From: Porphyromonadaceae bacterium CG2_30_38_12
Lineage (GTDB): Bacteria > Bacteroidota > Bacteroidia > Bacteroidales > Paludibacteraceae
Assembly (NCBI GenBank): GCA_001873635.1
Contig: MNZK01000059.1
Location: 1 to 64,000 of the forward strand
Direction of reading: 5' to 3'
Length of the DNA stretch: 64,000 nucleotides
Shown piece by piece: positions 18,300 to 38,046 of this stretch. The translations under genes and the position numbers were made by a program. Each line of letters opens with the position of its first letter. Position 1 is the first letter of the stretch. The notes under the pieces were generated by a model. The model had not been told where the DNA came from. It did no database searches and worked only from the letters and a program-made list of their open reading frames with translations.

Positions 18300-19637
18300 T
18301 TATAATTTTGAAATTTTCTGAGTAGAAACTTCACCATTCGCCATTTTAGCCACTACAAAATAATTGCCAGCAGCTAAATCAGAAATATCAACAGTTCTCG
18401 AATTGGCATTCAATACTTCGGTTCTGATAGATTGACCAACGATATTACGAATTGTAATTTCGCTAATTGCTGATTCGGCTTTGATGGTTAATTTATTCAT
18501 AACTGGGTTAGGATAAATATTAAAATTGGCTGTTTTAGTATTTACTATTCCACTGATTACTGTGTTTTTATGCAAATAAATATTATCGTACCACACATAA
18601 GAAACATTTGCAGTGGTTATTCCAATTTGAGCTACATCATTACGAGCCAAACCACCTGCTACTACGCCACCTAAAGCTGTAATTGGCACATCAACAGATA
18701 CCCATTGATTTGCTACTAATTGAGGTGTAGTACCTCCGTTTATATTCACTTCTAAAGCTGAACTTTCGCCATCACCTCCATTAAAATTGACCAATTTTAG
18801 ATTAAAAACATCACCGGTTAGGTCGGTATCAGTAATATAAAAATCAAAATGTAAGTGAGTGAAACTTGTTAAATCTTTTCTATTTGTTGAGAAATCAATT
18901 CCCTGACAAACTATTCCAGCATTCTTTTTTAATGTTTTATTATCTGCTATCATAACTTCAGTTGTAGCAGCACCACCGCACCATCCTGCATCAAAATTAT
19001 TTACTGTAATGTTTGTGTAGGCATCGCTGTAAATAGATACAACATCTTCGGCTGCTCTTGCTGGAGGAGTTGGTGCTGCTATGGTTGGTACTATGACGCA
19101 AGGTCCACATGATCCACCACAATCGATACCTGTTTCATCTCCATCCTGCACGCCATTGTTACAAGTTGTAGTAACTTCCATCAATGAAACATTGTCGATC
19201 CCAACAAATCCTGCAGCAGCACCCATGTCAAATATTATTCTACTGTTAGCATCAGTTGCAGGAGCAATAAATGTTAATTCAAAAGCTTTTGAAGTGGCAA
19301 TAAGATTAACTGTTTTAGTATCACTAGACCATGGGTCATGATTTAATCCGATACCTACAATCATAGTTCTTTCACGATCCGACCAAGCATCAAATTTTAA
19401 TTGATACGATTTTCCAGCTGTTAAACTCAAAACATAGCTTAAATTTACATCCCAAGGATTTGCTGCGACTGTAACGTTGGCTGAATTATAACTATTCGCA
19501 TTTTCAGTAACAACATTAGCTGCATTACCAGACCATCCGGTTGCTCCGGCTTCAAAGTTACCATTAGTAACTAATTCTTGTGCATAACTAATTGTAGCTA
19601 AAAAGATAACTACAAATAAGAGTGAAATTTTTTTCAT
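18300..19637 (-). CDS. Secreted CBM4-like / glucan-binding protein with T9SS sorting domain, no catalytic domain recognised
   Basis: Signal peptide; 'LVTNGNFEAGATGWSG...SYVLSLTAGKSYQLKFDAWSD' CBM4_9-like; 'CNNGVQDGDETGIDCGGSCGPC' linker; C-terminal 'NFNIYPNPVMNKLTIKAESAISEITIRNIVGQ...GNYFVVAKMANGEVSTQKISKL'. Confidence 0.8.
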   Translation of the reverse strand: MKKISLLFVVIFLATISYAQELVTNGNFEAGATGWSGNAANVVTENANSYNSANVTVAANPWDVNLSYVLSLTAGKSYQLKFDAWSDRERTMIVGIGLNHDPWSSDTKTVNLIATSKAFELTFIAPATDANSRIIFDMGAAAGFVGIDNVSLMEVTTTCNNGVQDGDETGIDCGGSCGPCVIVPTIAAPTPPARAAEDVVSIYSDAYTNITVNNFDAGWCGGAATTEVMIADNKTLKKNAGIVCQGIDFSTNRKDLTSFTHLHFDFYITDTDLTGDVFNLKLVNFNGGDGESSALEVNINGGTTPQLVANQWVSVDVPITALGGVVAGGLARNDVAQIGITTANVSYVWYDNIYLHKNTVISGIVNTKTANFNIYPNPVMNKLTIKAESAISEITIRNIVGQSIRTEVLNANSRTVDISDLAAGNYFVVAKMANGEVSTQKISKL

Positions 19638-19937
19638 TTTGTAATAATTTAATTGTTTGTAATAATAATAATAGAATTTAAAAATTTAATCTCGTAAATA
19701 TATCTTGTTCACTGTCAATGCAAATGTAGCGTAGATTCGAATAAATTAAACAGATTTTTACTACGCAAAATTTTCAAAATAGCTAAAAATTAGTACACAA
19801 TACTACGTCAATTGCAATGTTATATTTATGATAATCAGCATTATATGAAATATTATGTTGTGTAACATATTTGGCATACAATGTGGAGGATTTAAAGCGT
19901 GGGTTAAAAGGCAGATTTCAACAATCTTTATTCACCA

Positions 19938-20870
19938 TCAAGGGTTAGGGAAATTTCGCATTGCCTTTTTGGGCTTTCGATCTACGGTATAAAGTCCCCA
20001 ATGCTTTTCGGGTTCGAGCGGTTCGGGCGATCCTTTCCATGGTTCATCGAATGCTTCGAAAATAAAAATGAGTACATTGTCTCTTTTGCTCCATTGCATT
20101 AAATCATTGTAATAAATACTTTGAAATTCTTCGCTCACATTATCGGGACTAATTCCCCGTCCATTAGAATTTGTTGCCCATCCGGCTTCGGTAATTACCA
20201 CCGGTTTATGCGGATAACGTTGCGCGATGCTGTCGAAATTCTGCTTGGTGTAAGTCATCGCTTCGTGTATGTTTTTATATTCCCACACTGGATAGGTATG
20301 GATGGAAATAAAATCAACTTCGTCCACCAATGGTTTTAGCTTATCGTACCAAGGCACGTAATTGTCGCAAAAAGTAACAGGTTGTATGGCATATTTTTTT
20401 ATCAACCTCACATATCGAATTACTTTATCAACAGGTACATAATGATCTGTCCAGTCCACCGTTGCTTCGTTGCCAGCCGAAAGCGAGAACACAATTTGTG
20501 GATATTTATTTGCCAGTTTTATCAGTTTACGAATTTGTTTGAGGTTGCTTTTTTTATTTAGCAGCAGTTGTTCTTCACTGTAAATAGCGCCCCACGGGCA
20601 GCCGAAATTATTTCTTTCGGCACCAATGTATGCTCCAAGCATGACTTTGAAGTGAAGTTTTTCCTTTTCTATTACTTTCAAAACTGTTTCGGCATGCTTG
20701 GTACAATCGTACAAACGTAGATATGTCCAGTTATTTTCGAGCATGCGCAAGTCCTCCAAAATTTCAGGGTAAGATGGGTAAATGCCGCTATCGGGACTTT
20801 GACCTTCGCGATATCCCGAGTAGCATATAGCTTCGCCTTTGGGCAGATGCAAGTTTTTTAGCAAATCCAT
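19938..20870 (-). CDS. GH17-like glycoside hydrolase, no obvious signal peptide
   Basis: 'ICYSGYREGQSPD...YLRLYDCTKHAETVLKVI...SLSAGNEATVDWT...VDFISIHTYPVWE...PVVITEAGWATNSNG' GH17 pattern. Confidence 0.82.
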   Translation of the reverse strand: MDLLKNLHLPKGEAICYSGYREGQSPDSGIYPSYPEILEDLRMLENNWTYLRLYDCTKHAETVLKVIEKEKLHFKVMLGAYIGAERNNFGCPWGAIYSEEQLLLNKKSNLKQIRKLIKLANKYPQIVFSLSAGNEATVDWTDHYVPVDKVIRYVRLIKKYAIQPVTFCDNYVPWYDKLKPLVDEVDFISIHTYPVWEYKNIHEAMTYTKQNFDSIAQRYPHKPVVITEAGWATNSNGRGISPDNVSEEFQSIYYNDLMQWSKRDNVLIFIFEAFDEPWKGSPEPLEPEKHWGLYTVDRKPKKAMRNFPNP

Positions 20871-20873
20871 TTC

Positions 20874-22655
20874 TTAGTTTTTAATAAGTTCATTCACAGA
20901 GCGATGTCCATTTTCAAAAATAGATTCTATCAAATAATGTCCGGTTTGAATTTCGGGTAGTTCAATAATTATTTTTTTTGCTTTTACTTGTACCGTTTTT
21001 AAAGTTTGCCCTAACAAATTTATTATCAGTACTCGATCAATTTGATTGTTTGCAGAAATCGTTACTGTGTCATCCACAGGATTGGGATAAATTTGTAGAT
21101 TGTTAGCTGATATTGCTGATAGGGAAGAGGCATCGCAATTATTACCAACGACATACGAATATTGTTTTGTAACACTCATACCGCCTGCGAATGCAAATTT
21201 ACAAGCCAATTTTAAGGTTGCGCCTGCCGTTTTTCCATTCAGCGTAATGCTAAATTTTTTGCCACCCACATTGGTCATTTGCGTTTCGGCAAATCCCGAA
21301 GTGTAATCCCATAAATAAGCTACAACCCCTTCCTTGCTGTCAAGCATTTCAAAATTTGCTATTACACTATTACCCGAAGTCGAAAAGCTATACGCATATC
21401 CATTACTGAAAGTGCCTTGCGAAGCTACATTGGATATTCCTTCACACTCGCTGCTTGCTAATGTTTTAGCATTCAGAATGATGGATGCATCCTTGCTAAT
21501 ATTTTGAGTTGCGTCTTTGGCAGTGACCGAAAAATTGTACGTTGTACCGGGCATTAAACCCGACACGATAAATGATTTTTGACTACCCGAAAGTGCTTCA
21601 TTGGAAGCATTTGTGCCGTTGAACGAGATTGTATAAATTACACTGCCACTATCGTCGGTGCCATTGAGCAAAAATTCCACACTGGTTTGTGTTATCGCAC
21701 CCACACTTGCAGTAAGGTTGGTTGGTGGATTTGTGTCGATTTTCAAGCTATTGTTGCTGTGAAATTGCTCTCCTGCCTCACCTTTTTGATACACTCGAAT
21801 ATAGTCTATATACATTTTTACGGGCGTTCCATCCGTTGGAACAGCTGTAACACCAGCCGCATTGGCTATTCCTGTAAATCCAGGTCCACCCACTGCCAAA
21901 TTGTACAATAAGTGAAAGGGTTTGTGGAAATAATTATAAATTTGCTGCGGTGCATCGGCGTTAATTTTTTTCTGATAAAAAGGCATAGTGCGTGGAAATT
22001 TATCCAAATCGAGATACATTTGAATGCTGTCGGCAGTCCAGATAAGCGTGAATAAATGGAAATCATCCTGAATAGAATAAGGACCGGCAGCACCCGTATA
22101 ATCCATATAATGAATAAATTGAGGGCTAACTGGACCCCAATGTAATGCGCCACCCATAAACGACGATTGTGTGCCCGAAGCTATTCCAGCACTATGACCA
22201 CATTCCATCACGTCTATTTCGCCACAAGCAGGCCAATTCGAGCCGTTAAAGTCATTGCCCATTAACCAAAATGCAGGCCACAAACCATTTGCGGTAGAAG
22301 GGATTTTCATGCGTGTTTCTATTTTACCATACTGAAAATGCACTTTTCCAAGCGTATTGACACGTGCAGAGGTAAATTCTTTTCCCAAGTAATTTTCCTT
22401 TTTGGCATTCAGCACCATGCACCCAAATCCTTGATAATTTTCTATCGAAAGATTTTCGCTGCGGTAATACTGAAGCTCTGAATTCCCGCCACCATTGCCA
22501 TTCACTTCGATATTCCAGGTGTTTGTAACATCAACAGTAGGGTTGTTAAATTCGTCAGACCATTTTAATGTCCAGTTTTGGGCAAAAACAGTGATAAATG
22601 CAAATTGCAGAAATAATAAAAAAGTAGGTTTTTTCATTCGATGATAAAGCCCCAC
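20874..22655 (-). CDS. GH16 laminarinase-like enzyme with FN3-like domain and T9SS sorting domain
   Basis: 'LKWSDEFNNP...GLWPAFWLMGNDFNGSNWPACGEIDVMECG' (GH16 ExDxxE); 'NPPTNLTASVGAITQTSVEFLLNGTDDSG' FN3-like; C-terminal 'LQIYPNPVDDTVTISANNQ'. Confidence 0.92.
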   Translation of the reverse strand: MGLYHRMKKPTFLLFLQFAFITVFAQNWTLKWSDEFNNPTVDVTNTWNIEVNGNGGGNSELQYYRSENLSIENYQGFGCMVLNAKKENYLGKEFTSARVNTLGKVHFQYGKIETRMKIPSTANGLWPAFWLMGNDFNGSNWPACGEIDVMECGHSAGIASGTQSSFMGGALHWGPVSPQFIHYMDYTGAAGPYSIQDDFHLFTLIWTADSIQMYLDLDKFPRTMPFYQKKINADAPQQIYNYFHKPFHLLYNLAVGGPGFTGIANAAGVTAVPTDGTPVKMYIDYIRVYQKGEAGEQFHSNNSLKIDTNPPTNLTASVGAITQTSVEFLLNGTDDSGSVIYTISFNGTNASNEALSGSQKSFIVSGLMPGTTYNFSVTAKDATQNISKDASIILNAKTLASSECEGISNVASQGTFSNGYAYSFSTSGNSVIANFEMLDSKEGVVAYLWDYTSGFAETQMTNVGGKKFSITLNGKTAGATLKLACKFAFAGGMSVTKQYSYVVGNNCDASSLSAISANNLQIYPNPVDDTVTISANNQIDRVLIINLLGQTLKTVQVKAKKIIIELPEIQTGHYLIESIFENGHRSVNELIKN

Positions 22656-22693
22656 AAACCCCCTTGAAGGATTTTGGGGACTTTTTTTGGTAA

Positions 22694-23542
22694 TTATTTT
22701 AATTCTCTATACACTTTCACATAATCCACAAGCATTGTTTGAGGAAATACGGTACCTGCCACTGTTGTACCTACAAAGTTTCCGCACACTGCCAAGTTGA
22801 AAATTAGAAAAAATGGTTGGTCGTAAACCCAATTTCCACCTTTACTTACGACTTCTTGTTTTGAAATGCGTTTATATAAAACTTGGTCAGCAAAAAAATC
22901 AATTGCATTTTCGTCCCATTCTACTGCAAAAAGATGAAAATCAGTATCAAAACGGGCATTTGTTAAACTGTAAGTTTGCGTAATTGCATTGCCACCGTAT
23001 AAAACTGGTCCATGCAATGTACCATGGATTTTGTCAGGCTCCTGACCTTTGTATTCCATAATGTCAATTTCGCCACAGGCAGGCCATGCCGTAGTTTCAA
23101 TATTTGCACCTAACATCCAGAATGCAGGCCAAATGCCAGGACCATAAGGCAGTTTGATTCGTGCTTCGAAGCGGCCATATTTTTGTTCTATTAAACCCAT
23201 GGTTTTTATGCGCGCCGACGTATAGTTCGAACCTTCCTGACGAGCAGAGATTTTGAGAAAACCCTCTCCATCAATTTTATCTAATTTAATATTGTTGGTA
23301 TTATTAGTATAAGTCTGCCATTCGGCATTTCCCCAGCCATCGTTGTTGGGTCCTTTACCAATGTCAAATTTCCAGTTAGCCGAATTTGGAAGGCTATCGG
23401 CAAGAATGGTATTAAAATCATCCTGCCAAACAAGTTCCCATGTTTTCTTTTTAATTTCTGTGGAGTCGTTGCAACTCCAGGTAACAGCTATTATGCCTAA
23501 AAAAAAGACATATTTCATTGAATTAATTTTATTGCTTGTCAT
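22694..23542 (-). CDS. GH16 laminarinase-like lipoprotein
   Basis: Lipobox-like 'VTWSCNDS'; 'LVWQDDFN...GIWPAFWMLGANIETTAWPACGEIDIMEYKGQEP'. Confidence 0.93.
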   Translation of the reverse strand: MTSNKINSMKYVFFLGIIAVTWSCNDSTEIKKKTWELVWQDDFNTILADSLPNSANWKFDIGKGPNNDGWGNAEWQTYTNNTNNIKLDKIDGEGFLKISARQEGSNYTSARIKTMGLIEQKYGRFEARIKLPYGPGIWPAFWMLGANIETTAWPACGEIDIMEYKGQEPDKIHGTLHGPVLYGGNAITQTYSLTNARFDTDFHLFAVEWDENAIDFFADQVLYKRISKQEVVSKGGNWVYDQPFFLIFNLAVCGNFVGTTVAGTVFPQTMLVDYVKVYRELK

Positions 23543-23601
23543 AATTTATTTTTTTAATTTACTTATAAATTCTTTGCCAAATGTCAAATGTATATTTTCA
23601 A

Positions 23602-24960
23602 TCAATTTTTGTAGAAATAGACATTATCTAAGTATAAATCAGTCATTTTCGGGCTTTGAGGATCGGCAGCAATGATTAAAAATTGCAAAGCTGATTTTTG
23701 GCTCAATCCAAAGTTAGACAATGGAATATCCAAACTTTTCCAGCTACCCGTAGTTATCCCAGCACTGTTGGTAATGCTTTTCTCACCACCTACTGCATCT
23801 TTGAGTACTAATTTTACAGGTTGATTTGTAATCTGAGGTGCAACCACATAAATATCAAAATGTAAGTGGGTCATTGCCGAAGCATCCATATTGGCGAAAG
23901 TAATGGGCAAGTAACTGAATTTGCTAAAACTCATAATGTTATTCCCACTAATCGGAAATATATTGAGAATATTAGTTACATAATCCCATTTCGGCGTATC
24001 GATACTTACATTCGGATAGGCATCGCTAAACAATGAAATTACATTGGCGGCTGGTTGCAACGGTGTCGGTGCCATGGGTACAGCTTTCGTTAATGTTATT
24101 TTTCCAGTAGTACTAATATCTCCTAAATTAGCAGTAATATTAGCTGTTCCCGTGCCTTTGACAGTTACTAAACCTGCCTCATCGACAGATGCCACATTGC
24201 TATCCGAACTTGTAAAAGTCAGATACGAAGCCGGAACGTTGACTTCTTGAAAAACACCGCTTGGTAAATTTACGCTCATCACTACATTGGTATTGTAGGT
24301 TTGACCCACAAAGCCCGAAGAAGTAGGCCAGGATGAAGCGTTAGAAATTAAAATTTTCGGATGTGCGAGTGTTCCTAATTTTTCAAATTTCACTTCATCA
24401 ACCCAAATAGTATAACCCAATCCGTCGGATAGTGCGCCTGCCGAGTACGAAAACATACCTCTCTCCTTGTTGAGTTTTGAGGGGTCGGGAATAGGAATAA
24501 TAAATTTTTGCCATGTGGTGGTCAGCTTTACTTCCATTCCCACCTGAAAGGTAGTTACAAATTTTGCCTGACTTTCGGGATAACTTCCAAAGCTCGCATT
24601 CATAGGCGTTATGGTAGTTGCTTTCGCCCAAAAAGTGAGTGCGTCGTAACCCGATAGGTCGCGTGGCATTGAAGTGTAAAAAACACCACCCGCAAAATTT
24701 CCGGCAGGGTCATTGGCATTCGGCACTTCAAATTTCATCGATGCGGTACCTTTGTAATTTACGGTATAATCTACATCAAATGCAGTAACTTTTCCCCACG
24801 CATCGAACTTTAAACCCGAACTAAATCCGTCCAAAAAAACATCGGGTGTAGTGGGATAATTTGTTGCTATGGGCAATTGCGTAGTGTCGCGTTCGCAGCT
24901 TGCCACCAAAAATAAGATGGCAAAAAGTGCTATTATATTTTTAAATTGAATTTTTCTCAT
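23602..24960 (-). CDS. Putative glucan-binding lipoprotein (CBM-like + BIG2-like + shared C-terminal module)
   Basis: Lipobox 'LFLVASCERD'; 'SGYDALTFWAKATT'; BIG2-like 'LTFTSSDSNVASVDEAGLVTVKGTGTANITANLG'; C-terminal 'VISLFSDAYPNVSID...MTHLHFDIYV...LYLDNVYFYKN'. Confidence 0.72.
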   Translation of the reverse strand: MRKIQFKNIIALFAILFLVASCERDTTQLPIATNYPTTPDVFLDGFSSGLKFDAWGKVTAFDVDYTVNYKGTASMKFEVPNANDPAGNFAGGVFYTSMPRDLSGYDALTFWAKATTITPMNASFGSYPESQAKFVTTFQVGMEVKLTTTWQKFIIPIPDPSKLNKERGMFSYSAGALSDGLGYTIWVDEVKFEKLGTLAHPKILISNASSWPTSSGFVGQTYNTNVVMSVNLPSGVFQEVNVPASYLTFTSSDSNVASVDEAGLVTVKGTGTANITANLGDISTTGKITLTKAVPMAPTPLQPAANVISLFSDAYPNVSIDTPKWDYVTNILNIFPISGNNIMSFSKFSYLPITFANMDASAMTHLHFDIYVVAPQITNQPVKLVLKDAVGGEKSITNSAGITTGSWKSLDIPLSNFGLSQKSALQFLIIAADPQSPKMTDLYLDNVYFYKN

Positions 24961-24984
24961 TTTGTATGAATATTAAGGGTGATT

Positions 24985-27900
24985 TTACTTTCCGATATTA
25001 AAATGAATATACGTTCTGATTTCCCATTCGTTGCCATTGCCGTACCCTACTGCCAATGGGTCGGCAACTAATGCGCCAGCAGCGTTGGTGATGTATGTGG
25101 GTGCGTAGCGAGGCGAATATTGGTCTAACGAACGCCATGTGGCACGAATTCCCAACCGCGTTTCGGGTACAATAAACCATTTTTGTTTGGCGATGGAAGT
25201 CGATACATCGGCCATCAACTGCAAAGGGTAGGTTAAGTTAAAATCGTGATGATAATCATAAGGTCCCCAATCGTTTACTTTGGCAGTCGAAATTAATTTT
25301 ACTTTTTTGTAAATCATGCGGACATCACCTCCAAAGCGGGTAATCAGTCGTTCGTCGCTACCGTTTGATTGTGCAGTGCCTGCAAAAATATTGGCTATCA
25401 AACCAAAATCATGATTTATTTTGCTTACAATGCGGCTGTTCACTTCCCACAAGTCGTGTGCTGTGGGCGCTCCGGCAAATGCAAAAGTGGCTCGGTTTGC
25501 CAACTTTCCGATAGAAGCATCCTGCGTGGTAGGCTGGTGGCGATACACAAAATCGGCACTCATAGCAAACTTGGCATCTTCCATTTCGTCGTTGTCCCAA
25601 TCCCAATATCGGGTGGCAGGCGTTGGGTCGTAAGCAAAAAGCAATTCACCCGCAGTTGTTTCGCGGTTGGCGCGTACGGCAAATGGGTCATCGAGAATAT
25701 TACGTGGGCGTCCGGGTGCGGGTGCATCCATTGGCACTGGACCTACAATTGGTTTTTGCCAAAGGAAGTTAGGCGCAATTTCTAAATTTCCAATTTTGTA
25801 CGTCAATCCAGTCAGGAAATTGTACTGATTGCCGCTGCCACTATCTTTCAATCGCCATCCTGTGTAAGTTACGGTATAATCCGAACCACCCGAAGCCACT
25901 AATCCTTGAATGGCTCCTTGTCCGTACCAATTAATAGCACCTTGCGTGTAGGTCAGTTTCATTTTTCCACCCCAAGTGTCCTGCGATTTAATCTTGTCTT
26001 GATAAACGGTGTAGTTTCCAGTTGTTCCTTCTACCAGTTGGAACACATCGCCAATTCGGCGCGAGCCCGACCAAATTCCACCGGCACTAATTCCCAAACC
26101 GCCCAATTTGGTTTTTACTTCCAATGTAGCTCTGCGGTTTTGAGGTGTAGGTATGGCAAAGGAGCTCACCGAAGCGGTGCGTTTGTCTACATCTTCGTGG
26201 TAAATACCTGTGAAACCAAATTTTCCAATTTTCCAATTATATTTTGCCAACAATGCGGGGTTGGCTCCCCACCAAAGTTCGGGTCCAAAAGCCAAAGTCA
26301 ATCCACCGAGCGATTTTTTGCCTGTAACTTCGAATCCGAAAGGAGCTTCACCGTTGTAAATATCCATATTCGGACCGTAATGCGCTTCGGGATACAACCC
26401 AAAGAAATCGCCATCGTAGCCCCAATGATTGTGCCCTGTTCGGTAAAAACCCAACAGGCTGAACCATTTGTCATCCCATTTAAAGTCAGCTTGATACAAT
26501 TGAATCCGGTTGTTCGACAAGCTTAAATTATTAGTTGGGTCGGTGGTTTTTATCATTTGCATTGCCCCACGGTTTTCGTAAAAAATTTCGTCAATAGGAT
26601 TTTCAGCCACATTGCCCAAAATATTAAACGTTACATTTGCCTGTACATTTTCTGTCGGTTTTGCCTCTACACCAATGTAGTACGACTCCATGCGGTCGAA
26701 ACCTAACTTGCTTGGATAAGTAGGGGTTGTAAGATTTTCGTTTTTAACAGTGGGCGTAGTAATCATGCTTCCACCCGTGGTGAATGTCGAAATTTCAGCC
26801 CGGACGCCACTAATGCGCACTTTTTCAGCTATCTCGGTAAATAAAGCAGCTTTATCGGCTCTGGCTTTTAGCACATTATCAGTAACTTCGATGGTCGAAA
26901 AATAGTTAGTTAGCGAAGCAATAGATTTACTTTTTTGTACCGAATTAAAATGATGTACTTTTTGCAAAGCATAATAAGCGGCACGTGGATAGAGTTGATA
27001 ATGTCCTTTGGTATCGGTTTGTCCTTTGGCACAAATGCCATACCATTCCTCGTTCATATTATTTTCTTTTGGCACATAATCGTCTAAATATCCGCCGTTT
27101 ATCCACGAAGCATGGGTGTCGTGCACATCCAAATTGAGTGTTTGTCCGTATTTCCACCAACCATCGCTAAACTGAAAAGTGAAACCACCAATGCAGTTAT
27201 TTGCTTTGCCGTAACCAGCGCCATTGGCATAAATTTCTTTCCAGTTGCTAATTAAAAAGCGTGCTTGTGAAGCTTGGTCTTCCTGATTTGTTACAGCATT
27301 GTAAGCATCGGCACCAAACTCCGTAAACATTATCGGTACATTTACTTTGGCTTTTGCTTTGTCGAACAAATCGCCAAACGACATACCACGATAACAGTTA
27401 ATGCCTAATATATCCATATCTTTACATTCGTCGGCAATAATGTCGATAAATAGCATGTCGCCATTACAAATTGCAATGGGGCGCGAACTGTCGATGGTTT
27501 TCATTTTCTTTACCGCGTCGTTAAACACTTTGTACAAGGCTTTGGCGCGATGCGTAGATTCCCGTTTCTCTATAGGAATATCTTCCGTTTCGGCTCCCGA
27601 CCAAAATAGTCCGTAGTTGTTTTCGTTGCCTAATAAATAAGTCAATAAACCTGGCGTTCCTTTGTACATTTCGGCCATATCGGTTACTTCTTTCATCAGT
27701 AATTCCTGCGTACGACTATCTCCATATTCGGTGTTGGGCGTCCAAACGCCATCAATCGTTAAGCCGTAGCGACCAAACGAATGGTTTACGACTGTCCAAA
27801 TGCCATAATTCTCGTAAATATAGGTAATCCATTTGGGTTGAATACCCGTGTAAGCGCGTATGGTATTTACGCCCATATTTTTCAGCATGCCCATTTCGCG

Positions 27901-28125
27901 ATCCAACGCAGTTTTTATAAAAGCGTCGGGTTGCGTCCACAAACTGTAGGTGAAATTAGTTCCAATAGGGAAATAGTCCCAGTTCATACCATTAATAGTG
28001 AAGCTGTTACCATTTACCGACAGCCATAAACCGTCGTTGTTGTTCATTACCGATACTTTATCGGTCTGCCCTTGAACAGCATGTAACATGACAAGAAACA
28101 CGAAAGTTATGAATACTTTTTTCAT
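24985..28125 (-). CDS. Clan GH-A-like glycosidase fused to a predicted outer-membrane beta-barrel
   Basis: N-terminal half TIM-barrel-like with 'LLTYLLGNENNYGLFW' (NE) and 'VPIMFTEFGADAY' (TEFG). The C-terminal ~600 aa is amphipathic, aromatic and Gly-rich beta-strand pattern ending '...NEWEIRTYIHFNIGK'. Confidence 0.75.
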   Translation of the reverse strand: MKKVFITFVFLVMLHAVQGQTDKVSVMNNNDGLWLSVNGNSFTINGMNWDYFPIGTNFTYSLWTQPDAFIKTALDREMGMLKNMGVNTIRAYTGIQPKWITYIYENYGIWTVVNHSFGRYGLTIDGVWTPNTEYGDSRTQELLMKEVTDMAEMYKGTPGLLTYLLGNENNYGLFWSGAETEDIPIEKRESTHRAKALYKVFNDAVKKMKTIDSSRPIAICNGDMLFIDIIADECKDMDILGINCYRGMSFGDLFDKAKAKVNVPIMFTEFGADAYNAVTNQEDQASQARFLISNWKEIYANGAGYGKANNCIGGFTFQFSDGWWKYGQTLNLDVHDTHASWINGGYLDDYVPKENNMNEEWYGICAKGQTDTKGHYQLYPRAAYYALQKVHHFNSVQKSKSIASLTNYFSTIEVTDNVLKARADKAALFTEIAEKVRISGVRAEISTFTTGGSMITTPTVKNENLTTPTYPSKLGFDRMESYYIGVEAKPTENVQANVTFNILGNVAENPIDEIFYENRGAMQMIKTTDPTNNLSLSNNRIQLYQADFKWDDKWFSLLGFYRTGHNHWGYDGDFFGLYPEAHYGPNMDIYNGEAPFGFEVTGKKSLGGLTLAFGPELWWGANPALLAKYNWKIGKFGFTGIYHEDVDKRTASVSSFAIPTPQNRRATLEVKTKLGGLGISAGGIWSGSRRIGDVFQLVEGTTGNYTVYQDKIKSQDTWGGKMKLTYTQGAINWYGQGAIQGLVASGGSDYTVTYTGWRLKDSGSGNQYNFLTGLTYKIGNLEIAPNFLWQKPIVGPVPMDAPAPGRPRNILDDPFAVRANRETTAGELLFAYDPTPATRYWDWDNDEMEDAKFAMSADFVYRHQPTTQDASIGKLANRATFAFAGAPTAHDLWEVNSRIVSKINHDFGLIANIFAGTAQSNGSDERLITRFGGDVRMIYKKVKLISTAKVNDWGPYDYHHDFNLTYPLQLMADVSTSIAKQKWFIVPETRLGIRATWRSLDQYSPRYAPTYITNAAGALVADPLAVGYGNGNEWEIRTYIHFNIGK

Positions 28126-28152
28126 ATAATTTTTATTAAAAAGGTTACTATA

Positions 28153-29049
28153 TTAATATTTCAGATTTCCATCTTTGTCCCAAATTCCCCAATACGCACC
28201 CACATCGCCTTCGGCACCAACTTTCCACGATTCGTCGAAGGACGTAAAATAGAAAACATCAATTTTTTCTTCTTTCGACCACAATTGGGTATTGATAAAA
28301 TACTTCAAGGCATTTTCCTTCGATGGTAGAGCTCCTTTATAATCTTCTCCCTGGCTTGGCCAGCCTGTTTCGGTTATAATTACTTGCTTATCGCCACCAC
28401 CGGCATGCACAGCCTGATAAAACATTTCCTTCATGTACATCAGCGAATAGTCGGCATGGCAACATTCCCAAAAAGGATAACAGTTTGCTAAAATCACATC
28501 GCAAGCTTCAGTAATTTTGGGACGAGCAGCAAATTCATAATAAGCATCCACATAGCCGACTGGAACCTCAGGAATTGCTTCTTTCACGCGCAAAATTGTA
28601 TCCAACAAAGCCTCTTCGGTCATATCTTCGCGATACAAAACCTCATTGCCAACGGCTGCTATATCCACAAAACCATCCTTTGCCAATTGTATCAGTCCGG
28701 CTATTTCGGCTTCATTTTTTTCGGCATCTTTGCCCAGCCAGGCGCCAACTAAGGTTTTGAGCCCAAATTCTTTAGCTATTTTAGGAATCAATTCATTGCC
28801 CTCGATGCACGAGAAAGTGCGTATCCATTTGGTATAAGGTGCAATGACCTTCATTCTCTTTCTGATTTGTTCTTCAGAAAGCGCATCACCAGGTTTCTGC
28901 CCCTCTTCGTAAGCACTATAACAAAGTCCGTGCATGCCATCGTTCAACACTTTGCTGAACAAATCCTTCAACTCATCGTTGCTTTTATTGCCAAAATCTG
29001 CACCGGCGATTCCGGTCAAGGACAATTTTTTTCCTGCTCTTATTGACAT
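28153..29049 (-). CDS. GH17-like glycoside hydrolase, no obvious signal peptide
   Basis: 'GLCYSAYEEGQKPGD...WIRTFSCIEGNELIPKIAKEFGLKTLVGAWLG...AAVGNEVLYRED...QVIITETGWPSQGEDY...FTSFDESWK'. Confidence 0.88.
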   Translation of the reverse strand: MSIRAGKKLSLTGIAGADFGNKSNDELKDLFSKVLNDGMHGLCYSAYEEGQKPGDALSEEQIRKRMKVIAPYTKWIRTFSCIEGNELIPKIAKEFGLKTLVGAWLGKDAEKNEAEIAGLIQLAKDGFVDIAAVGNEVLYREDMTEEALLDTILRVKEAIPEVPVGYVDAYYEFAARPKITEACDVILANCYPFWECCHADYSLMYMKEMFYQAVHAGGGDKQVIITETGWPSQGEDYKGALPSKENALKYFINTQLWSKEEKIDVFYFTSFDESWKVGAEGDVGAYWGIWDKDGNLKY

Positions 29050-29070
29050 AATCGTTATGTATTAAAATTT

Positions 29071-30501
29071 TTATAGTTTTCCTCTGCGTTTTATTAATTC
29101 TGTTCGTATTTCGTTCGATTTCTTTTCATTCAAGTCATATTTCCACATAATTAAAATAGCTAAGAATGCTGTAAATGCAGGAATAATAATATCGGCAAGT
29201 CGAAGATTTGTGATGGTGTCGGCAGTCTGTACAGCCATATTTTGATTAAAACCAACAAGTTTCAGCACCAAACCACCCAATACCATCGCCAACCCTTGAC
29301 CTAATTTAACCATCCACCAATAAATTGCACCAAATGTAGCTTCCTTACGTGGCATACCGTTGTTAAGTTCATCCAAATCGCAAACATCGGCTGTCATACT
29401 CATCATTAATGTAAATAATCCGCCAATTCCAAAGACCATAAATGGAATGGGCATAAAAATCATCCATGGATTTTCAGGATTAAAACCCCACCATTTTAAA
29501 ACATAGCCTACAATGGAAATGGCAGTTGCAATAAGAAATGCTTTGCGTTTTCCTAATTTGTTTGACAACCATGTAACAATAGGAATAATGATGATTGCTG
29601 TAGAAATAGCACTGATGGTCGAAAACCACGCCGGCCATGTACCTGCATCGCCATAAGAGCCTTTAAACATATAGAAAACAATGATAAAATAGCTAAACGA
29701 GGCAACCATCTGAAAACCGTTGAAAACCAAAAACGTAGCACCACAAAGTTTTACAAATTGTTTGTTTTTGGATATTTGAGCAATGCCTCTGAATAAGTCT
29801 TTCAAATTTTCGAATATTGTACTAAATGAAATCTTAGCGCGGTTTGTGAGGTTCGACTGCTCTACTTCTTTACAAAAAAGTGCTGGCATCACTCCCAATA
29901 AAATACAGATTCCTCCAACTACTATGGATAAATGGCGGACGCCAACTGCCTGTGATTCAAACAAATTCGGATTAGCAATGATTACCCAAAACCACGGAAC
30001 TATCATCCATGCAATTTGACCAATAGTTTGCGAAAATGCCATCAGGCGAGTGCGCTCTTTATAATCCGAAGTCATTTCGTAACCCAAACCAATGAGCGGT
30101 GTTGAAAATATGGTATTGGCTGTTAAATAAACTAATGATAAAATAAGGAAATACCAAAAATTATACATTTGTGTATTTTCAGGGCTTAGTTGCCACAGTA
30201 CGGCAAATAATATTCCACTCAAAATGGCTCCTGCAAAAATATACGGACGGCGGCGCCCAAAACGGGAAGTCGTATTATCGGAAATATAACCCATTATTGG
30301 GTCGCTGATAGCATCATAAAAACGGGGTAATCCGCCAAGTAAACCGGCAAGGAAAGGATCCATACCGAAAGCTGTCAGTAAAAAGAAGGCAAATACGCCC
30401 AAAGCACCAGGTAGCAAGTTATTCACTAAATGCCCCGACCCAAATGCAATTTTTTGTCCAATAGGTACAATGTCCTCTTTTGCTGTTTTGATTTGTTCCA
30501 T
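29071..30501 (-). CDS. MFS/GPH-family sugar:cation symporter
   Basis: 12-TM pattern with 'DPIMGYISDNTTSRFGRRRPYIFAGAI' (GPH-type motif). Confidence 0.9.
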   Translation of the reverse strand: MEQIKTAKEDIVPIGQKIAFGSGHLVNNLLPGALGVFAFFLLTAFGMDPFLAGLLGGLPRFYDAISDPIMGYISDNTTSRFGRRRPYIFAGAILSGILFAVLWQLSPENTQMYNFWYFLILSLVYLTANTIFSTPLIGLGYEMTSDYKERTRLMAFSQTIGQIAWMIVPWFWVIIANPNLFESQAVGVRHLSIVVGGICILLGVMPALFCKEVEQSNLTNRAKISFSTIFENLKDLFRGIAQISKNKQFVKLCGATFLVFNGFQMVASFSYFIIVFYMFKGSYGDAGTWPAWFSTISAISTAIIIIPIVTWLSNKLGKRKAFLIATAISIVGYVLKWWGFNPENPWMIFMPIPFMVFGIGGLFTLMMSMTADVCDLDELNNGMPRKEATFGAIYWWMVKLGQGLAMVLGGLVLKLVGFNQNMAVQTADTITNLRLADIIIPAFTAFLAILIMWKYDLNEKKSNEIRTELIKRRGKL

Positions 30502-30555
30502 AATTTATTAATTTAAGATAGTGTGATTTATTTTTATTGTAATTTTATATGCTTG

Positions 30556-32040
30556 CTATGGGTATAACACAACTGTTTGTAAGGCTTGTCCCTGAATAGC
30601 TATTTTTGTTGTTCTATTTTTCAAATTGATAGTCAAATCTTTAGGAGAATTTTCTTCGTTCAGCATCACCACTACAATAGTGCCATCAGGATTTTGAGCT
30701 GCTGTGAGATGCAGTTTCTCATCCGAAGTTTTAAATCCAATCCGTACTGCCCCCGGTCGAATGTATCTGCTGAAATGCGACATCACAGCATACAATGGCG
30801 TGAAATAAACTTCGTCGGTAGCAGGGTCAACAATCACGGGCGCTATACACCAGTTTTTGAACCAATTCGGTCCACCTTGCTTGTCCAGCACCATGTTCCA
30901 GTCCACCCAGCCATTCACCCAATTGTTCAGACAGCCAATAATATCGTTGGCATACCGATAAACCGGAGCATATTTTGGGTGTAAATACTTATCTTTTTCG
31001 GGCGCCCAATCCCAACCCCAATCGGTTGCTTTTTTTTGCCAATACCAACTGTCATTTTTCCATTGCGGCACTTCGGCATCGATGCAAGCTTCGGTCTGAA
31101 TCAGGTATTTATTGGGAGCCACTTGGTGAGCATGTTGCAGCGACTTGGGAAACCAATCGTACGTGCTTGCATACCAATGAATGGCTGTTCCATCGAAATA
31201 CTCCTTGGAAGCGTCGTTTTCGTACAATACGTCCACCCATTTCTCAAGTTCTTCGCCACGATTTTGGTCGTAACCAAGTATTTTCACATCCCGCTCGTTG
31301 GCTTTTAGTTTGGGTCCCAAATGATTTTTTACAAAATCAGTCATTTCTTGCGGTGTGTAATGCATGCTTTCCCAATTATTGCCACAACCCAATGGTTCAT
31401 TTTCAACCGTAATGCCCCAAATATTAATCCCTTCGGCTTTGTAAGCGTCCAAATATTTGGCAAAAAACAACGCCCATGTATCGTAATATGAGGGTAATAA
31501 TTTGCCACCGCGCCAATCGTTGTTATCTTTCATCCAAGGTGGTGCAGTCCAGGGCGATGAAATGATGTTGAAGCCATCCTTCGAAACCTGCATGGCATCT
31601 TTAATCATCGGAATAATGTCATCTTTGTCCTCTTTAATCGAAAAAGATTGCAGTTCCATATCATTTTCAACGGGAGCATAACTGTAATGCCCCAACGAAA
31701 AATCGCACGAGTTGATGTGTGTACGTGTTAATGAATATTTTGCACCGCTCTCGCCAAAATAAGCTTCAAGGATTTGCTTGCGTTTGGCAGCACTCATTTG
31801 ATGGAACAAATAAGCTGAGGCTTCGGTAAATGAACCGCCAAAACCCAGAATAGTTTGGTATTTTTCGTTGGGCAAAAGCGTAATCGACACCGATTGCTTA
31901 CATTGCTCAAAAGTTGTTACAAGCTCCGTTTTATTTGTCTTTGCCGAAGTTTCAAAAACTTCTACTTTGAATGACTGCGAAATAAGCTTACATGCAGACA
32001 TAAGAATAAGGACTAAAGTAATAGATAATTTGTTAACCAT
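30556..32040 (-). CDS. GH30 glycosidase (beta-1,6-glucanase/glucosylceramidase-like)
   Basis: 'YQTILGFGGSFTEASAYLF...ISSPWTAPPWMKDN...ITVENEPLGCGN...YLIQTEACIDAE'. Start placed at MVNKLSITLVLILMSAC (32040), not 32277. Confidence 0.92.
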   Translation of the reverse strand: MVNKLSITLVLILMSACKLISQSFKVEVFETSAKTNKTELVTTFEQCKQSVSITLLPNEKYQTILGFGGSFTEASAYLFHQMSAAKRKQILEAYFGESGAKYSLTRTHINSCDFSLGHYSYAPVENDMELQSFSIKEDKDDIIPMIKDAMQVSKDGFNIISSPWTAPPWMKDNNDWRGGKLLPSYYDTWALFFAKYLDAYKAEGINIWGITVENEPLGCGNNWESMHYTPQEMTDFVKNHLGPKLKANERDVKILGYDQNRGEELEKWVDVLYENDASKEYFDGTAIHWYASTYDWFPKSLQHAHQVAPNKYLIQTEACIDAEVPQWKNDSWYWQKKATDWGWDWAPEKDKYLHPKYAPVYRYANDIIGCLNNWVNGWVDWNMVLDKQGGPNWFKNWCIAPVIVDPATDEVYFTPLYAVMSHFSRYIRPGAVRIGFKTSDEKLHLTAAQNPDGTIVVVMLNEENSPKDLTINLKNRTTKIAIQGQALQTVVLYP

Positions 32041-32279
32041 TTTAGAGAATTTTGATAATACAAATATAGTTGGTGCCATAGCCAATAACAAATTTTTTAC
32101 ATCACATAAACACGCAAAGGAAATAAGGCTACTACTCAAAACCTCAATTTTTAAAATCATACTATACTGATTATCAGAGTTTTGAAATTTTACCTGCTGC
32201 ATAACATATTTCAATAGCCATTTTCTACCAATAAAATACGCTAATATTGAACATGTAAAATCAAAAAGAATCAACATTT

Positions 32280-35171
32280 ATGCAGCGAAAAATATTTTCT
32301 ATCCTATCCGTACTCTTTTTTTTTTATTTAGTTTTAGTGGCAAATAATCCGATTGTTCGGAATTATTATAAAGAGAATTACAAAGCAGGTACTCAAAACT
32401 GGGCAATAGCTCAGGACGAGCAAAACCTCATGTATTTTGCCAACAATGGGGGTTTGCTGCAATACGATGGCAACGTTTGGATTACCACAGCGCTGAAATC
32501 CGAAACCAGCATCCGTTCGCTACTTTACGGCAAAGACGGCTGCATCTATATTTCGACTTTCAACGATTTCGGCTATTTTAAAAAAGGAAATAATCGGCTC
32601 GTTTATCATTCGTTAGCTCAAAAAACAGGTATTGATAAAAAAGAGTCCAACGCACTATACAATATTATTCAGGCTACACACAATATCTATTTTCAGGGGA
32701 AAAATAGCATTTTTGAATATGATGGAAAAAACATCAACAAAATTTCTTTTCCCAGCAAAATCAACGCATCTGCTTTTGTAAATGGTGTGTTGATGTTGGC
32801 AAGCGAAAAAAGTGGTGCTTTCGTGCTCAACGGCAAGCAATTTATGCGGCTTCCTGGTTCCGAAATGCTAATGAATAAAAAGGTTTGCTCTATACTTTCG
32901 CTCGATAATCAAACGGTTTTGTTTATAACCAATCAGTACGGTGTGTATGCCTACAACGGTATTTCCATAAGTAAATACAATACCGGTATTGATAATTTTT
33001 TAATGGCTAACCAGGTGTTTTGTGCAGCTCGGAGCAATCATGTATTAGCATTTGGGACTGTTCAAAAAGGGGCTGCCATTCTCAACCTGACAACAAAATC
33101 GGTACAATATGTCAACACGTTCAGCGGCTTGCAAAACAACACCGTACTGAGTATGACTTTCGACCGTCAGCAGAATTTGTGGCTGGGTTTGGATAAAGGT
33201 ATCGATTTGGTGGTATTAAATGTGCCTGTACAAAATATTTTTGGCAAAAACAATTTATATGGTGCCGGCTATAGTTCCATTGTGAAAGATAAGCTCCTGT
33301 ATATGGCTACCAATCAGGGTCTTTTCGTTACAACTTATCCGCTTGCCAACACTGATACTTCGCTTCAACCTTATCTGATCAAAGGCTCAGAAGGGCAAGT
33401 TTGGAACCTCACCGAAATTGACAACACCCTTTTTGGAGGCGATGACCGAGGCGCATTTACAGTACGTGGCACAAGCATTGAACGCATCAAAGGCTTGCCA
33501 GGAACGTGGAATTTTAAACCCATGCCCAACCATCCCAATTTGATCTTAGGCTGTTCATACAACGGATTGTTTATGCTCAAAAAAACAGGCCGCAAATGGC
33601 TTCTTTCGCATTTTCTGAAAGGAAATTTCAAGGAATCAAGCCCGCTGTTTGAACCATTATCCGACGGTTCAGTATGGTTTAGTCATTGGCAAAAGGGGCT
33701 TTTTAAACTGAAACTGAATGAGGCTTTGGATAGTATCGTGCGTGTATCAAATTATGATAAAGCCAAAGGCTTTCCGACCAATCGCAACAATACTTTTTTC
33801 AAAATCAAAAATTCGCTCATTTTCTCCTCCGAAGGTGGCTTTTTCAGCTACAATGCTAAGACAGACAGCATGGTTAGCAACAACACATGGAATCAGCTTT
33901 TCGCTTCCAAGCCTGCCTACATCCGTTTGCACGAAAGTCCAAAGGGCGATGTGTGGTGCGTTTCGGGACGCTTTTTGGGCTTGGCACGCATTCAAAAAGA
34001 CGGTTCTTATCGCATGGATTCAACCTCTTATCGTATTTTACAGTCCAAGATTTTGCCGGGTTTCGAACATTTTCTTTTCGTCGATAATCAAAAAACAATT
34101 TTGAGCACCGAGGATGGATTTAGCAGTGTCAATACAAACGAATTACCTAAAGATAAGTCAAACTTTAAGGTATTGATTAGCATTATAATTGCATCCAAAG
34201 ATAGCTATTCGGAAAACGAAACACGACACATCATGGCTAATTTATTACAGCAGGAAACCTTCCCGAAAAGCCATAATTCTGTCCGCATCGAATACAACGC
34301 ACCCGAATATCGTGGAGAGAGTATGATTCAATACAGCTACAAACTCGAGAACTACGATAATAATTGGTCGGAATACACAACTGAGAATAGAAAAGAATAC
34401 AACAAACTTCCTCGAGGTACATACATTTTTCGCGTGAAAGCTCGTAACTTATTGGAATCGAAAGAGGTAGAAACATCCTACGAATTCCGGATTGCCCCTG
34501 CCTGGTACGAATCTAACTTTGCTTTTGTAATTTATTTCCTACTGCTTATTGTTGCTATTATGCAATTGTATCTATTTGTAAAACATAAATCTGCAAAAGG
34601 TGCACGTGAAATGGAGGAACGAAAAGAACGCGAATTGCAAGAACATAAAAATGCCTTTGAAGCCGAAACTACTGCCAAAAAGAAGGAGATTAAAGAACTA
34701 AAAAACCAACAACTGCAATACGAATTGCGTCATAAAGCACAGGAATTGGCTACTTCAACGATGAACCTGATTCGCAAAAACGATATTTTGCTCGAAATGT
34801 TAGATAGTATTGGCAAAGTTACTGACGAAATTAAAAAGTCGAACGATCAGAGCACAATTATAAGCCATTTAGGCAAAATGGAACGACAAATAAAACAAAA
34901 TATTGAACAGGATAAAAACTGGAAACGTTTTGAGGAAAACTTTGATTTAGTATATGAAAATTACCTGAAACGCTTAAGCGAAAACTATCCGGAGCTTAAC
35001 ATAACCGACAAAAAAATATGTGCTTATATCAAAATGGATTTGTCGTCGAAGGACATGGCTCCGTTGCTCAACATGTCGGTTCGAAGCATCGAAACAAATC
35101 GTTACCGCATTCGACAGAAATTGCAAGTAGGTCGTGACGTGAATTTGGCCGATTTCTTGCAGAAATTCTAA
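32280..35171 (+). CDS. Membrane-spanning regulator: propeller repeats + Y_Y_Y domain + TM + coiled coil + LuxR-like HTH
   Basis: 'LMYFANNGGLLQYDGNVW', 'NLWLGLDKGIDLV'; 'IQYSYKLENYDNNWSEYTTENRKEYNKLPRGTYIFRVKARN'; C-terminal 'LNITDKKICAYIKMDLSSKDMAPLLNMSVRSIETNRYRIRQKL'. No kinase domain seen. Confidence 0.88.
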   Translation: MQRKIFSILSVLFFFYLVLVANNPIVRNYYKENYKAGTQNWAIAQDEQNLMYFANNGGLLQYDGNVWITTALKSETSIRSLLYGKDGCIYISTFNDFGYFKKGNNRLVYHSLAQKTGIDKKESNALYNIIQATHNIYFQGKNSIFEYDGKNINKISFPSKINASAFVNGVLMLASEKSGAFVLNGKQFMRLPGSEMLMNKKVCSILSLDNQTVLFITNQYGVYAYNGISISKYNTGIDNFLMANQVFCAARSNHVLAFGTVQKGAAILNLTTKSVQYVNTFSGLQNNTVLSMTFDRQQNLWLGLDKGIDLVVLNVPVQNIFGKNNLYGAGYSSIVKDKLLYMATNQGLFVTTYPLANTDTSLQPYLIKGSEGQVWNLTEIDNTLFGGDDRGAFTVRGTSIERIKGLPGTWNFKPMPNHPNLILGCSYNGLFMLKKTGRKWLLSHFLKGNFKESSPLFEPLSDGSVWFSHWQKGLFKLKLNEALDSIVRVSNYDKAKGFPTNRNNTFFKIKNSLIFSSEGGFFSYNAKTDSMVSNNTWNQLFASKPAYIRLHESPKGDVWCVSGRFLGLARIQKDGSYRMDSTSYRILQSKILPGFEHFLFVDNQKTILSTEDGFSSVNTNELPKDKSNFKVLISIIIASKDSYSENETRHIMANLLQQETFPKSHNSVRIEYNAPEYRGESMIQYSYKLENYDNNWSEYTTENRKEYNKLPRGTYIFRVKARNLLESKEVETSYEFRIAPAWYESNFAFVIYFLLLIVAIMQLYLFVKHKSAKGAREMEERKERELQEHKNAFEAETTAKKKEIKELKNQQLQYELRHKAQELATSTMNLIRKNDILLEMLDSIGKVTDEIKKSNDQSTIISHLGKMERQIKQNIEQDKNWKRFEENFDLVYENYLKRLSENYPELNITDKKICAYIKMDLSSKDMAPLLNMSVRSIETNRYRIRQKLQVGRDVNLADFLQKF

Positions 35172-35219
35172 TAGCAAATTCATTCACAAAGAGGGTGATT
35201 GTTATTTGCAAACAATAAT

Positions 35220-36206
35220 TCAACTCATTTCTAACATCCGTAAAATCGGCTTCACAGCTTTTATCTGTATTGCCTCATCCACCAAAATTTCTGGTGTTTC
35301 GTTCAATAAACACAGATAGAGCTTCTCGAGGGTATTTAAACGCATAAAATTACATTCGTTACAAGCGCAAGTACTGTCGTTAGGTGGTACCGGAACAAAC
35401 TGCTTATCAGGACTTTTCTTTTGCATTTCGTGCATGATGCCACTTTCGGTAGCTACTAAAAATGTGTTTTTATCAGAATGTATGGAATAATTCAGCAAAG
35501 CTTGTGTACTTCCAATAAAATCTGCCATCAACAACAAAGGGCGTTTACATTCGGGGTGAGCCAGCACTTCCGCTTCGGGGTATTCGGCTTTAAGTTTCAC
35601 CAACTTTTCAAGCGAAAATTGCTCGTGTACATGGCAGGCTCCATCCCATAACAACATATCGCGACCTGTTACACTATTGATGTAATTTCCAAGATTCCGA
35701 TCCGGACCAAAAATTAATTTAGCATCGCGGGGAAACTGATCGACAATTTTTTTTGCATTGGTCGAAGTTACAACCACATCCGTTAGAGCTTTCACTGCCG
35801 CTGTGGTGTTTACGTAAGAAATAACAGTATGGTCAGGGTGCGCCTTACAAAACACTTCAAAAGCATCAGCAGGGCAACTATCAGCTAAGGAGCAACCCGC
35901 TTTCATGTCCGGAATAAGTACTTTTTTGGTTGGCGAAAGTATTTTGGCGGTTTCGCCCATGAAATGTACGCCGCAAAGCACAATAATGTCGGCATTGGTT
36001 TTGGCAGCTTGTTGCGCTAATGCTAAACTATCGCCTACCACGTCGGCTATATCCTGAATATCGCCCGTTTGATAGTAGTGTGCCATAATAACGGCATTTT
36101 TTTCGGCTTTGAGTTGTAAAATTTTTGTCCTTAAATCTTCTTGTTTTTGTTGGGATGAATTACCAGATGCTAAGTTCATATCGTTTTCTGTGTGCATATA
36201 TTTCAA
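35220..36206 (-). CDS. nadA: Quinolinate synthase A
   Basis: '[30 protein letters not shown]...[13 protein letters not shown]...[17 protein letters not shown]'. Confidence 0.96.
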
Positions 36207-36238
36207 TTTTTTTTTGATTCATAAAGCAGAAGGCAAAG

Positions 36239-36823
36239 TTATATATTTTTTTGCGAACGATATAGAAAAATAAAAAATAAAAATGGAAGCATAAACCCAA
36301 GCAAAGCGCCTGCCAAAACATCGGAAGGATAATGAACTCCTAAAGCCATGCGGGAGTAAGCCACAGCGCCAGCCCACATATAAGCAGGAATAATAACGTA
36401 CCATTTGGGATATGCCAAGCTAATTGCTGTGGCTATAGAAAAAGCATCACTGGTATGCCCCGAGGGGAATGATGGGCTACCACCATTAGTCATTTTTTCC
36501 AAAAAAGGATAACTTACAAAAGGTCTTGGGCGATTTATTAGTAGCTTTAAAAACGTTGTTACTAAACTGGTTACAATGACAGAAAGAAGGATAAAAAGTG
36601 CTTTTTTGTGTGTATGTCTAAATCGCTTGCGAAAGCTTAAACCAAGGAGCAAACCACTTACACCGTAAGCAATAGGCGATGCTGAATTGGTAATGCCTTG
36701 TATCAATGAATCGGCTTGTTTAATGCGCTGTAGATTCAGTTGCCTTAGTATGTCAATGTCCATGTTCTGACTGCAAATAAAATTTGCTAACAAAACAAAA
36801 AGGAACACCAAACGTATTCTCAT
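36239..36823 (-). CDS. PAP2-family phosphatase
   Basis: 'KLLINRPRP...PSFPSGHTSDAFSIATAISL...SRMALGVHYPSDVLAGALLG'. Confidence 0.92.
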   Translation of the reverse strand: MRIRLVFLFVLLANFICSQNMDIDILRQLNLQRIKQADSLIQGITNSASPIAYGVSGLLLGLSFRKRFRHTHKKALFILLSVIVTSLVTTFLKLLINRPRPFVSYPFLEKMTNGGSPSFPSGHTSDAFSIATAISLAYPKWYVIIPAYMWAGAVAYSRMALGVHYPSDVLAGALLGFMLPFLFFIFLYRSQKNI

Positions 36824-37817: not shown

Positions 37818-38046
37818 AGCAATTCTTGATAAAAAAAATACTTTTTTAGTGCAAAAATAGTCATTTATTTTCAAAAAACAATGCATTTGTCCACAACTGA
37901 GCTTTCCTGCAAATGGTTATAAGCTCTTTTTCGTAAAAATTACTTAACTCTCACTTAATTGTGACTTAATTTTTAAAAATTACTCCGAATGACATTTAGG
38001 TGTTTTTTTGTGGCTATGTATGTTGGAATTTTAATCGCCAATTGGG

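Follow-up and report, generated by a model that had tools for sequence, protein, structure and literature searches.

Gene content of the locus

In the window, i.e. the whole stretch of 64,000 nucleotides analysed here, a gene for a fused glycosidase and outer-membrane barrel lies within a same-strand run of beta-glucan genes next to a divergent regulator:

18300–19637, minus strand: secreted protein, sugar-binding-like, ending in a type IX secretion sorting tail; grouped with the partner lipoprotein by clustering
19938–20870, minus strand: GH17-like enzyme, no signal peptide
20874–22655, minus strand: GH16 beta-glucanase with fn3 and type IX secretion sorting tail
22694–23542, minus strand: GH16 beta-glucanase, lipoprotein
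23602–24960, minus strand: partner lipoprotein, 452 aa, lipobox ...VASC, Big_2/Ig-like domain
24985–28125, minus strand: fused GH-A glycosidase/outer-membrane barrel, 1046 aa (from sequence, assembly, relatives, and AlphaFold)
28153–29049, minus strand: GH17 enzyme, no signal peptide (cytosolic)
29071–30501, minus strand: GPH-type sugar:cation symporter (MFS_2)
30556–32277, minus strand: GH30 beta-1,6-glucanase/glucosidase; start codon uncertain, relatives ~500 aa
32280–35171, plus strand: sensor-regulator (Reg_prop/Y_Y_Y/LuxR-type HTH), divergent from the operon

The run leads from GH30 via the GPH symporter, GH17, the fusion, the lipoprotein, and the GH16 lipoprotein to the GH16 enzyme with the type IX tail and the second GH17, with gaps of 54, 21, 27, 24, 59, 38, and 3 bases in this order. 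The sugar-binding-like protein follows 300 bases past the last GH17. An earlier interpretation made from the letters only (the sequence-only reading) had described a beta-glucan locus with a GPH symporter, two GH17 enzymes without signal peptides, and no SusC/SusD. This description holds: no SusC or SusD gene is present in the locus, which additionally harbours the adjacent lipoprotein, two GH16 enzymes, GH30, and the regulator. Among the genes by which we recognize laminarin loci (GH16, GH17, GH30, GH149, and MFS), all except GH149 are found, and the locus is assigned to this type. The GH149 phosphorylase of most relatives is absent from the region 18300–37886.

Domain architecture of the fusion

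The open reading frame starts with ATG, contains no internal stop, and is carried by the assembly as a single frame. Since the best 80 of at least 585 relatives, identified by a scan of genome contigs, are also full or near-full length (61–93% identity), both a chance ORF and a misassembly can be dismissed. The protein is divided as follows (all minus strand):

28069–28125: signal peptide, residues 1–19 (from sequence); mature N-terminus at the invariant Q20
26941–28056: GH-A TIM-barrel domain, GH158-like, residues 24–395, catalytic N167/E168 and E269 (from model and conservation)
27622–27624 and 27319–27321: codons of E168 and E269 within the TIM domain
26821–26940: helical linker, residues 396–435, poorly conserved (38% identity)
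24988–26820: 26-strand outer-membrane barrel, residues 436–1046, no plug, long aromatic loops conserved

No Pfam family matches any part of the protein at E 0.1 or better, and used as a single-sequence query the full protein yields no significant match in Pfam or PDB. The full-length AlphaFold model (40 sequences) is of moderate confidence (pLDDT 73, pTM 0.53). Together, the intact 1046-aa frame and the folds of its two parts confirm that a glycosidase is fused to an outer-membrane barrel, as the sequence-only reading had proposed.

The TIM fold predicted by AlphaFold spans approximately residues 24–395 and starts directly behind the signal peptide, in agreement with the clan GH-A barrel previously read into the first ~400 residues. 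Foldseek places a GH158 endo-laminarinase (BuGH158, 6pal) at the top of the PDB matches (E 1.7e-12), followed by GH157, GH35, and GH2 enzymes. Likewise, a 23-sequence profile ranks GH158 first in the PDB (E 1.2e-11), with GH2, GH157, and a 1,3-beta-glucanosyltransferase further down. Like GH158, the fusion has a TIM barrel of clan GH-A and two catalytic glutamates, and it shares the glucan context with GH158 and GH157; the similarity is, however, remote (E 1e-11 for the family profile, 14% identity when aligned by structure), and the window sequence belongs to no Pfam family. N167, E168, and E269 are present without exception in 107 non-redundant fused proteins. As GH158 leads by both fold and profile and these residues are invariant, the domain is likely a retaining beta-1,3-glucan enzyme. 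A GH2 TIM model gives weak matches in 19 of the 23 relatives (best 6e-10); GH2 membership was rejected because the window protein has no Pfam match and lacks the N-terminal sandwich domains. The domain has probably still to be classified in CAZy, and plausibly appears as 'GH0' or 'GH2' in published loci. An N-terminal 'DKVxV' motif, considered as a TonB box, is the first strand of a hairpin of the TIM domain, which also occurs in enzymes without barrel and aligns with the equivalent hairpin of BuGH158.

The C-terminal 652 residues were modelled with 102 sequences (pLDDT 82.9, pTM 0.79) and form 26 strands. The strands are amphipathic and even in number, with short turns on one side, as in outer-membrane beta-barrels. 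A soluble beta-sandwich, which the sequence-only reading had named as the outcome speaking against it, was looked for in this model, and the opposite was obtained: the outer-membrane barrel fold excludes both a beta-sandwich and a carbohydrate-binding C-terminus. All 50 PDB fold matches listed are outer-membrane barrels (TonB receptors, OmpF-like porins, MOMP, and AlgE). Their TM-scores do not exceed ~0.4, so that no close relative of known structure was found, and the sequence profile of the barrel detects no relatives in the PDB. Pfam reveals no plug domain in the protein. ScrY, a sugar-specific porin, and AlgE are also plugless outer-membrane barrels for sugars among the fold matches, yet they comprise 16–18 strands and no enzyme, and the alignments are partial (TM-score 0.2–0.4). 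An open 26-strand pore would be leaky, a point against a channel, so that something must fill or cap it.

The long loops match the strands in conservation (0.77 vs 0.72). Conservation reaches 0.92 in loop 562–595 (RTGHNHWGYDGDFFGLYPEAHYGPN...) and 0.95 in loop 954–964 (GPYDYHHDFNL). Loops kept this strictly are unusual for outer-membrane proteins, which suggests a role in substrate recognition.

Distribution and the lipoprotein partner

The best 80 relatives belong to Bacteroidales, Flavobacteriales, Saprospiraceae, and Chitinophagales, and all full-length relatives fetched show 57–93% identity. In an even draw across the phylum, 34 of 248 genomes match, with partial and distant matches counted; the full-length matches of this draw, the window itself aside, are 57–62% identical. 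A search with the enzyme domain, counting barrel-less forms, has matches in 23 of 397 genomes from an order that is presumably Flavobacteriales, as its members resemble named Flavobacteriaceae, and in 49 of 113 from a second order. The fusion occurs in named cultured species and is thus open to experiment (Flavobacterium, Chryseobacterium, Cloacibacterium, Halpernia, and Flavivirga). It is also found on single MAG contigs labelled KSB1 (L041) and Thermoanaerobaculia (L029), which may reflect mis-binning or horizontal transfer. Across 297 genomes, intact barrel matches always belong to this fusion, split-contig fragments and broken copies excepted.

The conserved neighbourhood comprises the fusion, the lipoprotein, GH16, a 1150-aa protein, GH17, GH30, and the symporter. 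The 1150-aa neighbour is a GH149 beta-1,3-oligoglucan phosphorylase (1768 bits to 6hq6) and is included in most relatives' loci. The lipoprotein, which probably also contains sugar-binding beta domains, directly follows downstream in 127 of 128 fused loci, as opposed to none of 23 barrel-less loci. Hence, the fusion is not the one-protein device of the sequence-only reading. Further, GH16 lies within 6 genes downstream in all 106 fused loci assessed for it. In the enzyme-domain tree, barrel-less forms are nested among fused ones, with 8 changes; in all 6 independent pairs, a change in the barrel is accompanied by one in the lipoprotein (p 0.03). A recently truncated copy (L131:2025-3700) stops just past the linker, with a barrel remnant of ~93 profile positions behind a stop; lipoprotein and GH16 are lost there, and GH149, GH17, and the symporter are kept. 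This pattern and the co-loss indicate that the enzyme travels with the downstream pathway. Barrel and lipoprotein, often with GH16, behave as one acquisition module, as far as gene content and phylogeny suggest.

The barrel-less enzymes of L176, L177, L171, L128, and L129 are among the longest tree branches (0.48–0.7 vs a median of 0.15), as if constraint had relaxed once the barrel was lost. In L132 (8145-9203) and L134 (8550-9545), whose genomes contain no fused protein, distant GH-A lipoproteins of ~330–350 aa (23–26% identity) adjoin GH17, GH149, and the symporter and possibly constitute another substitute.

Relation to SusC/SusD

The fusion resembles SusC/SusD as an outer-membrane barrel with an adjacent surface lipoprotein in a Bacteroidota glycan locus, where either can take the same operon position. 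It differs in lacking plug, CarbopepD_reg, and TonB-dependent receptor domains, in having ~26 strands vs 22, in a partner that is not SusD, and in the enzyme fused to the barrel. Assignment of the fusion as SusC (TIGR04056) fails on the absent CarbopepD_reg and Plug domains, with the SusC model matching 33 other places in the genome; the partner is not SusD (PF07980), having a Big_2/Big-like match only and lying outside the genome's 14 SusD places. The genome encodes 16 SusC-like proteins that exceed the model cut-off, all outside the window locus, and SusC/D pairs are present elsewhere. The nearest SusC/SusD-like pair is ~34 kb away (window 62166 onward, L209:2166-8156), is followed by a phosphodiesterase/sulfatase-like gene, and is probably not glucan-related. 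An Eco57I-type restriction-modification protein of 1315 aa is encoded on the same contig ~7 kb past the window end (L209:11153-15100). The genome's three other GH16 genes share no contig with a SusC over the cut-off (MAG 83% complete).

Among the 101 fused loci with at least 4 upstream ORFs, 90 have no SusC/D upstream, and in 11 a same-strand SusC and SusD precede the fusion. Ten of these 11 are among the 20 fused loci drawn from Flavobacteriales. Conversely, the barrel-less enzyme directly follows SusC-SusD-(CBM)-GH16 in L127, L135, L175, L176, and L177, and SusD-GH16 at a contig end in L136. These loci occupy four separate positions in the tree, nested among fused forms. Thus, the fusion module and SusC/D each occur alone or stacked, and their operon places are exchangeable. 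The tendency of barrel and SusC/D to avoid each other is no more than suggestive: when kinship is counted, the link between barrel loss and SusC/D presence is not significant (median p 0.5 on independent pairs). Many barrel-less loci, often on short contigs, contain neither the barrel and lipoprotein nor the SusC/D module.

The replacement of SusC/SusD proposed by the sequence-only reading therefore stands in part. Most fused loci are free of SusC/D upstream, while the Flavobacteriales loci holding both rule out simple replacement; this co-occurrence leans toward the finding that the same reading had named against itself, a SusC/D pair co-regulated with the locus. The barrel could accordingly be an accessory channel for short products, with SusC/D, in the locus or elsewhere, as the main laminarin importer. 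The Flavobacteriales loci and the SusC/D pairs elsewhere in the window's genome agree with this explanation. We nonetheless consider it unlikely, as SusC/D is missing upstream in 90 of the 101 loci with sufficient flank, the outside GH16 genes share no contig with an over-cut-off SusC, and the nearest pair adjoins the phosphodiesterase/sulfatase-like gene.

Location of the enzyme domain

In the full-length model, connections after even strands have a median of 2 residues, and those after odd strands a median of 26 (range 6–38; Mann-Whitney p 1.3e-4). The same alternation of turns and loops is repeated in the separate barrel model. Short turns of outer-membrane barrels face the periplasm. Given the even strand number and the side of the short turns, both ends of the barrel would be periplasmic, and so would the N-terminal enzyme. 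The lipoprotein signals are consistent with this placement. An acidic residue at position +4 after the lipobox cysteine, a pattern that resembles Bacteroidota surface-export signals, occurs at a frequency of 0.64 in the partner lipoproteins and 0.71 in the GH16 lipoproteins. In the barrel-less enzyme lipoproteins, it occurs in 0 of 10; barrel-less enzymes have ordinary signal peptides or lipoboxes without acidic +4. We infer, from a full-length model of moderate confidence and from these signals, that the GH-A domain is probably periplasmic and not exposed at the surface. Topology and the absent acidic +4 disfavour the cleavage or remodelling of surface glucan that the sequence-only reading had ascribed to the fusion.

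Alternatively, the barrel might display the GH-A domain on the cell exterior in an autotransporter-like manner, where it would cut glucan for import by SusC/D encoded elsewhere, for which the 16 SusC-like proteins outside the locus would be at hand. The order of N-terminal enzyme, helix, and C-terminal barrel is that of autotransporters, and the related BuGH158 from Bacteroides uniformis is believed to be a surface enzyme, which counts against a periplasmic enzyme (PMC7157763). However, a classical autotransporter with a 12-strand barrel and pore helix is excluded by the ~26 strands and the linker, a low-confidence helix with 38% identity unlike a pore helix, whose first part also occurs in barrel-less enzymes. 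Moreover, barrel-less enzymes carry plain or non-surface signal peptides, and highly conserved outer loops would be needless in a mere anchor. Surface display is thus doubtful.

Proposed import mechanism

Our preferred reading is that the barrel and lipoprotein form a plugless channel module that probably admits laminari-oligosaccharides, trims them on arrival, and operates independently of TonB (rough probability 0.5). Judged by family and signal type, the surface GH16 enzymes would cut laminarin, and the surface lipoprotein may capture the fragments. Oligosaccharides would pass through the predicted 26-strand barrel, whose outer loops are aromatic and conserved, and could be cut or trimmed by the GH-A domain, an activity suggested by its GH158/GH157 likeness and catalytic residues; topology would place this tethered domain on the periplasmic side. 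Trimming on arrival would reduce back-diffusion and keep the gradient downhill. By family assignment, the GPH symporter is expected to bring what is released into the cytosol; GH17 and GH30 would complete the breakdown there, joined in most relatives by the GH149 phosphorylase. Barrel and lipoprotein would hence work like SusC and SusD without belonging to either family, alone or beside SusC/D. The fusion is probably an uncharacterised second sugar-import route, often placed where a SusC/SusD importer would stand. More tentatively, it may exemplify a widespread, undescribed class of Bacteroidota outer-membrane importers, in which an enzyme-channel fusion and a surface lipoprotein import laminarin with hydrolysis at the periplasmic mouth as the driving force in place of TonB energy, and which is evolutionarily exchangeable with SusC/SusD.

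A closed, structural barrel that does not transport and simply tethers a periplasmic glucanase to the outer membrane is improbable: the deduced nature of the pore function and the survival of the enzyme without barrel in several lineages (the 8 tree changes) favour it, whereas it leaves the strong loop conservation and the strict co-occurrence with a surface-type lipoprotein unexplained, and a lipid anchor, which some barrel-less forms have, could replace 600 residues.

Comparison with known laminarin systems

Few polysaccharides processed by Bacteroidota are as abundant as laminarin. If SusC/D-free loci import it via the fusion, surveys based on SusC/D would miss a large consumer group; SusC/D expression serves as a proxy for laminarin consumers (PMC6298971). 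CAZyme clusters lacking susCD would gain an import route, and GH149 clusters without susCD were noted in 2018 (PMC5827456). The fusion would also represent a rare outer-membrane combination of enzyme and channel and would allow one to test directly whether TonB energy can be replaced by hydrolysis at the exit. In the literature searched, which mostly does not extend to subscription journals, no description of a glycosidase fused to an outer-membrane barrel was found.

The locus resembles the variant 1/variant B laminarin loci of Formosa, Polaribacter, and Muricauda in GH149, GH17, GH30_1, GH16, MFS, and a LuxR-type regulator. In contrast, the accessible portions of the reports on those loci describe no barrel, and the importers there are SusC/D (PMC6246565, PMC10108472, PMC13188888, PMC6298971). 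Among the same neighbours, two of them list a 'GH2' gene (PMC13188888) and a 'GH0' gene (PMC10108472), and this extra gene is plausibly the fusion or its barrel-less form. In Formosa, loci of the fusion's type are laminarin-induced and a GH17-MFS fusion is described (PMC6246565). This protein, FbGH17b, also places a transporter and a laminarin enzyme on one polypeptide but is an inner-membrane MFS protein with an enzyme of another family (PMC6246565). Among the relatives' loci, MFS2 members of 784–796 aa, e.g. L131:8617-10968, are symporters fused to GH17, as in Formosa.
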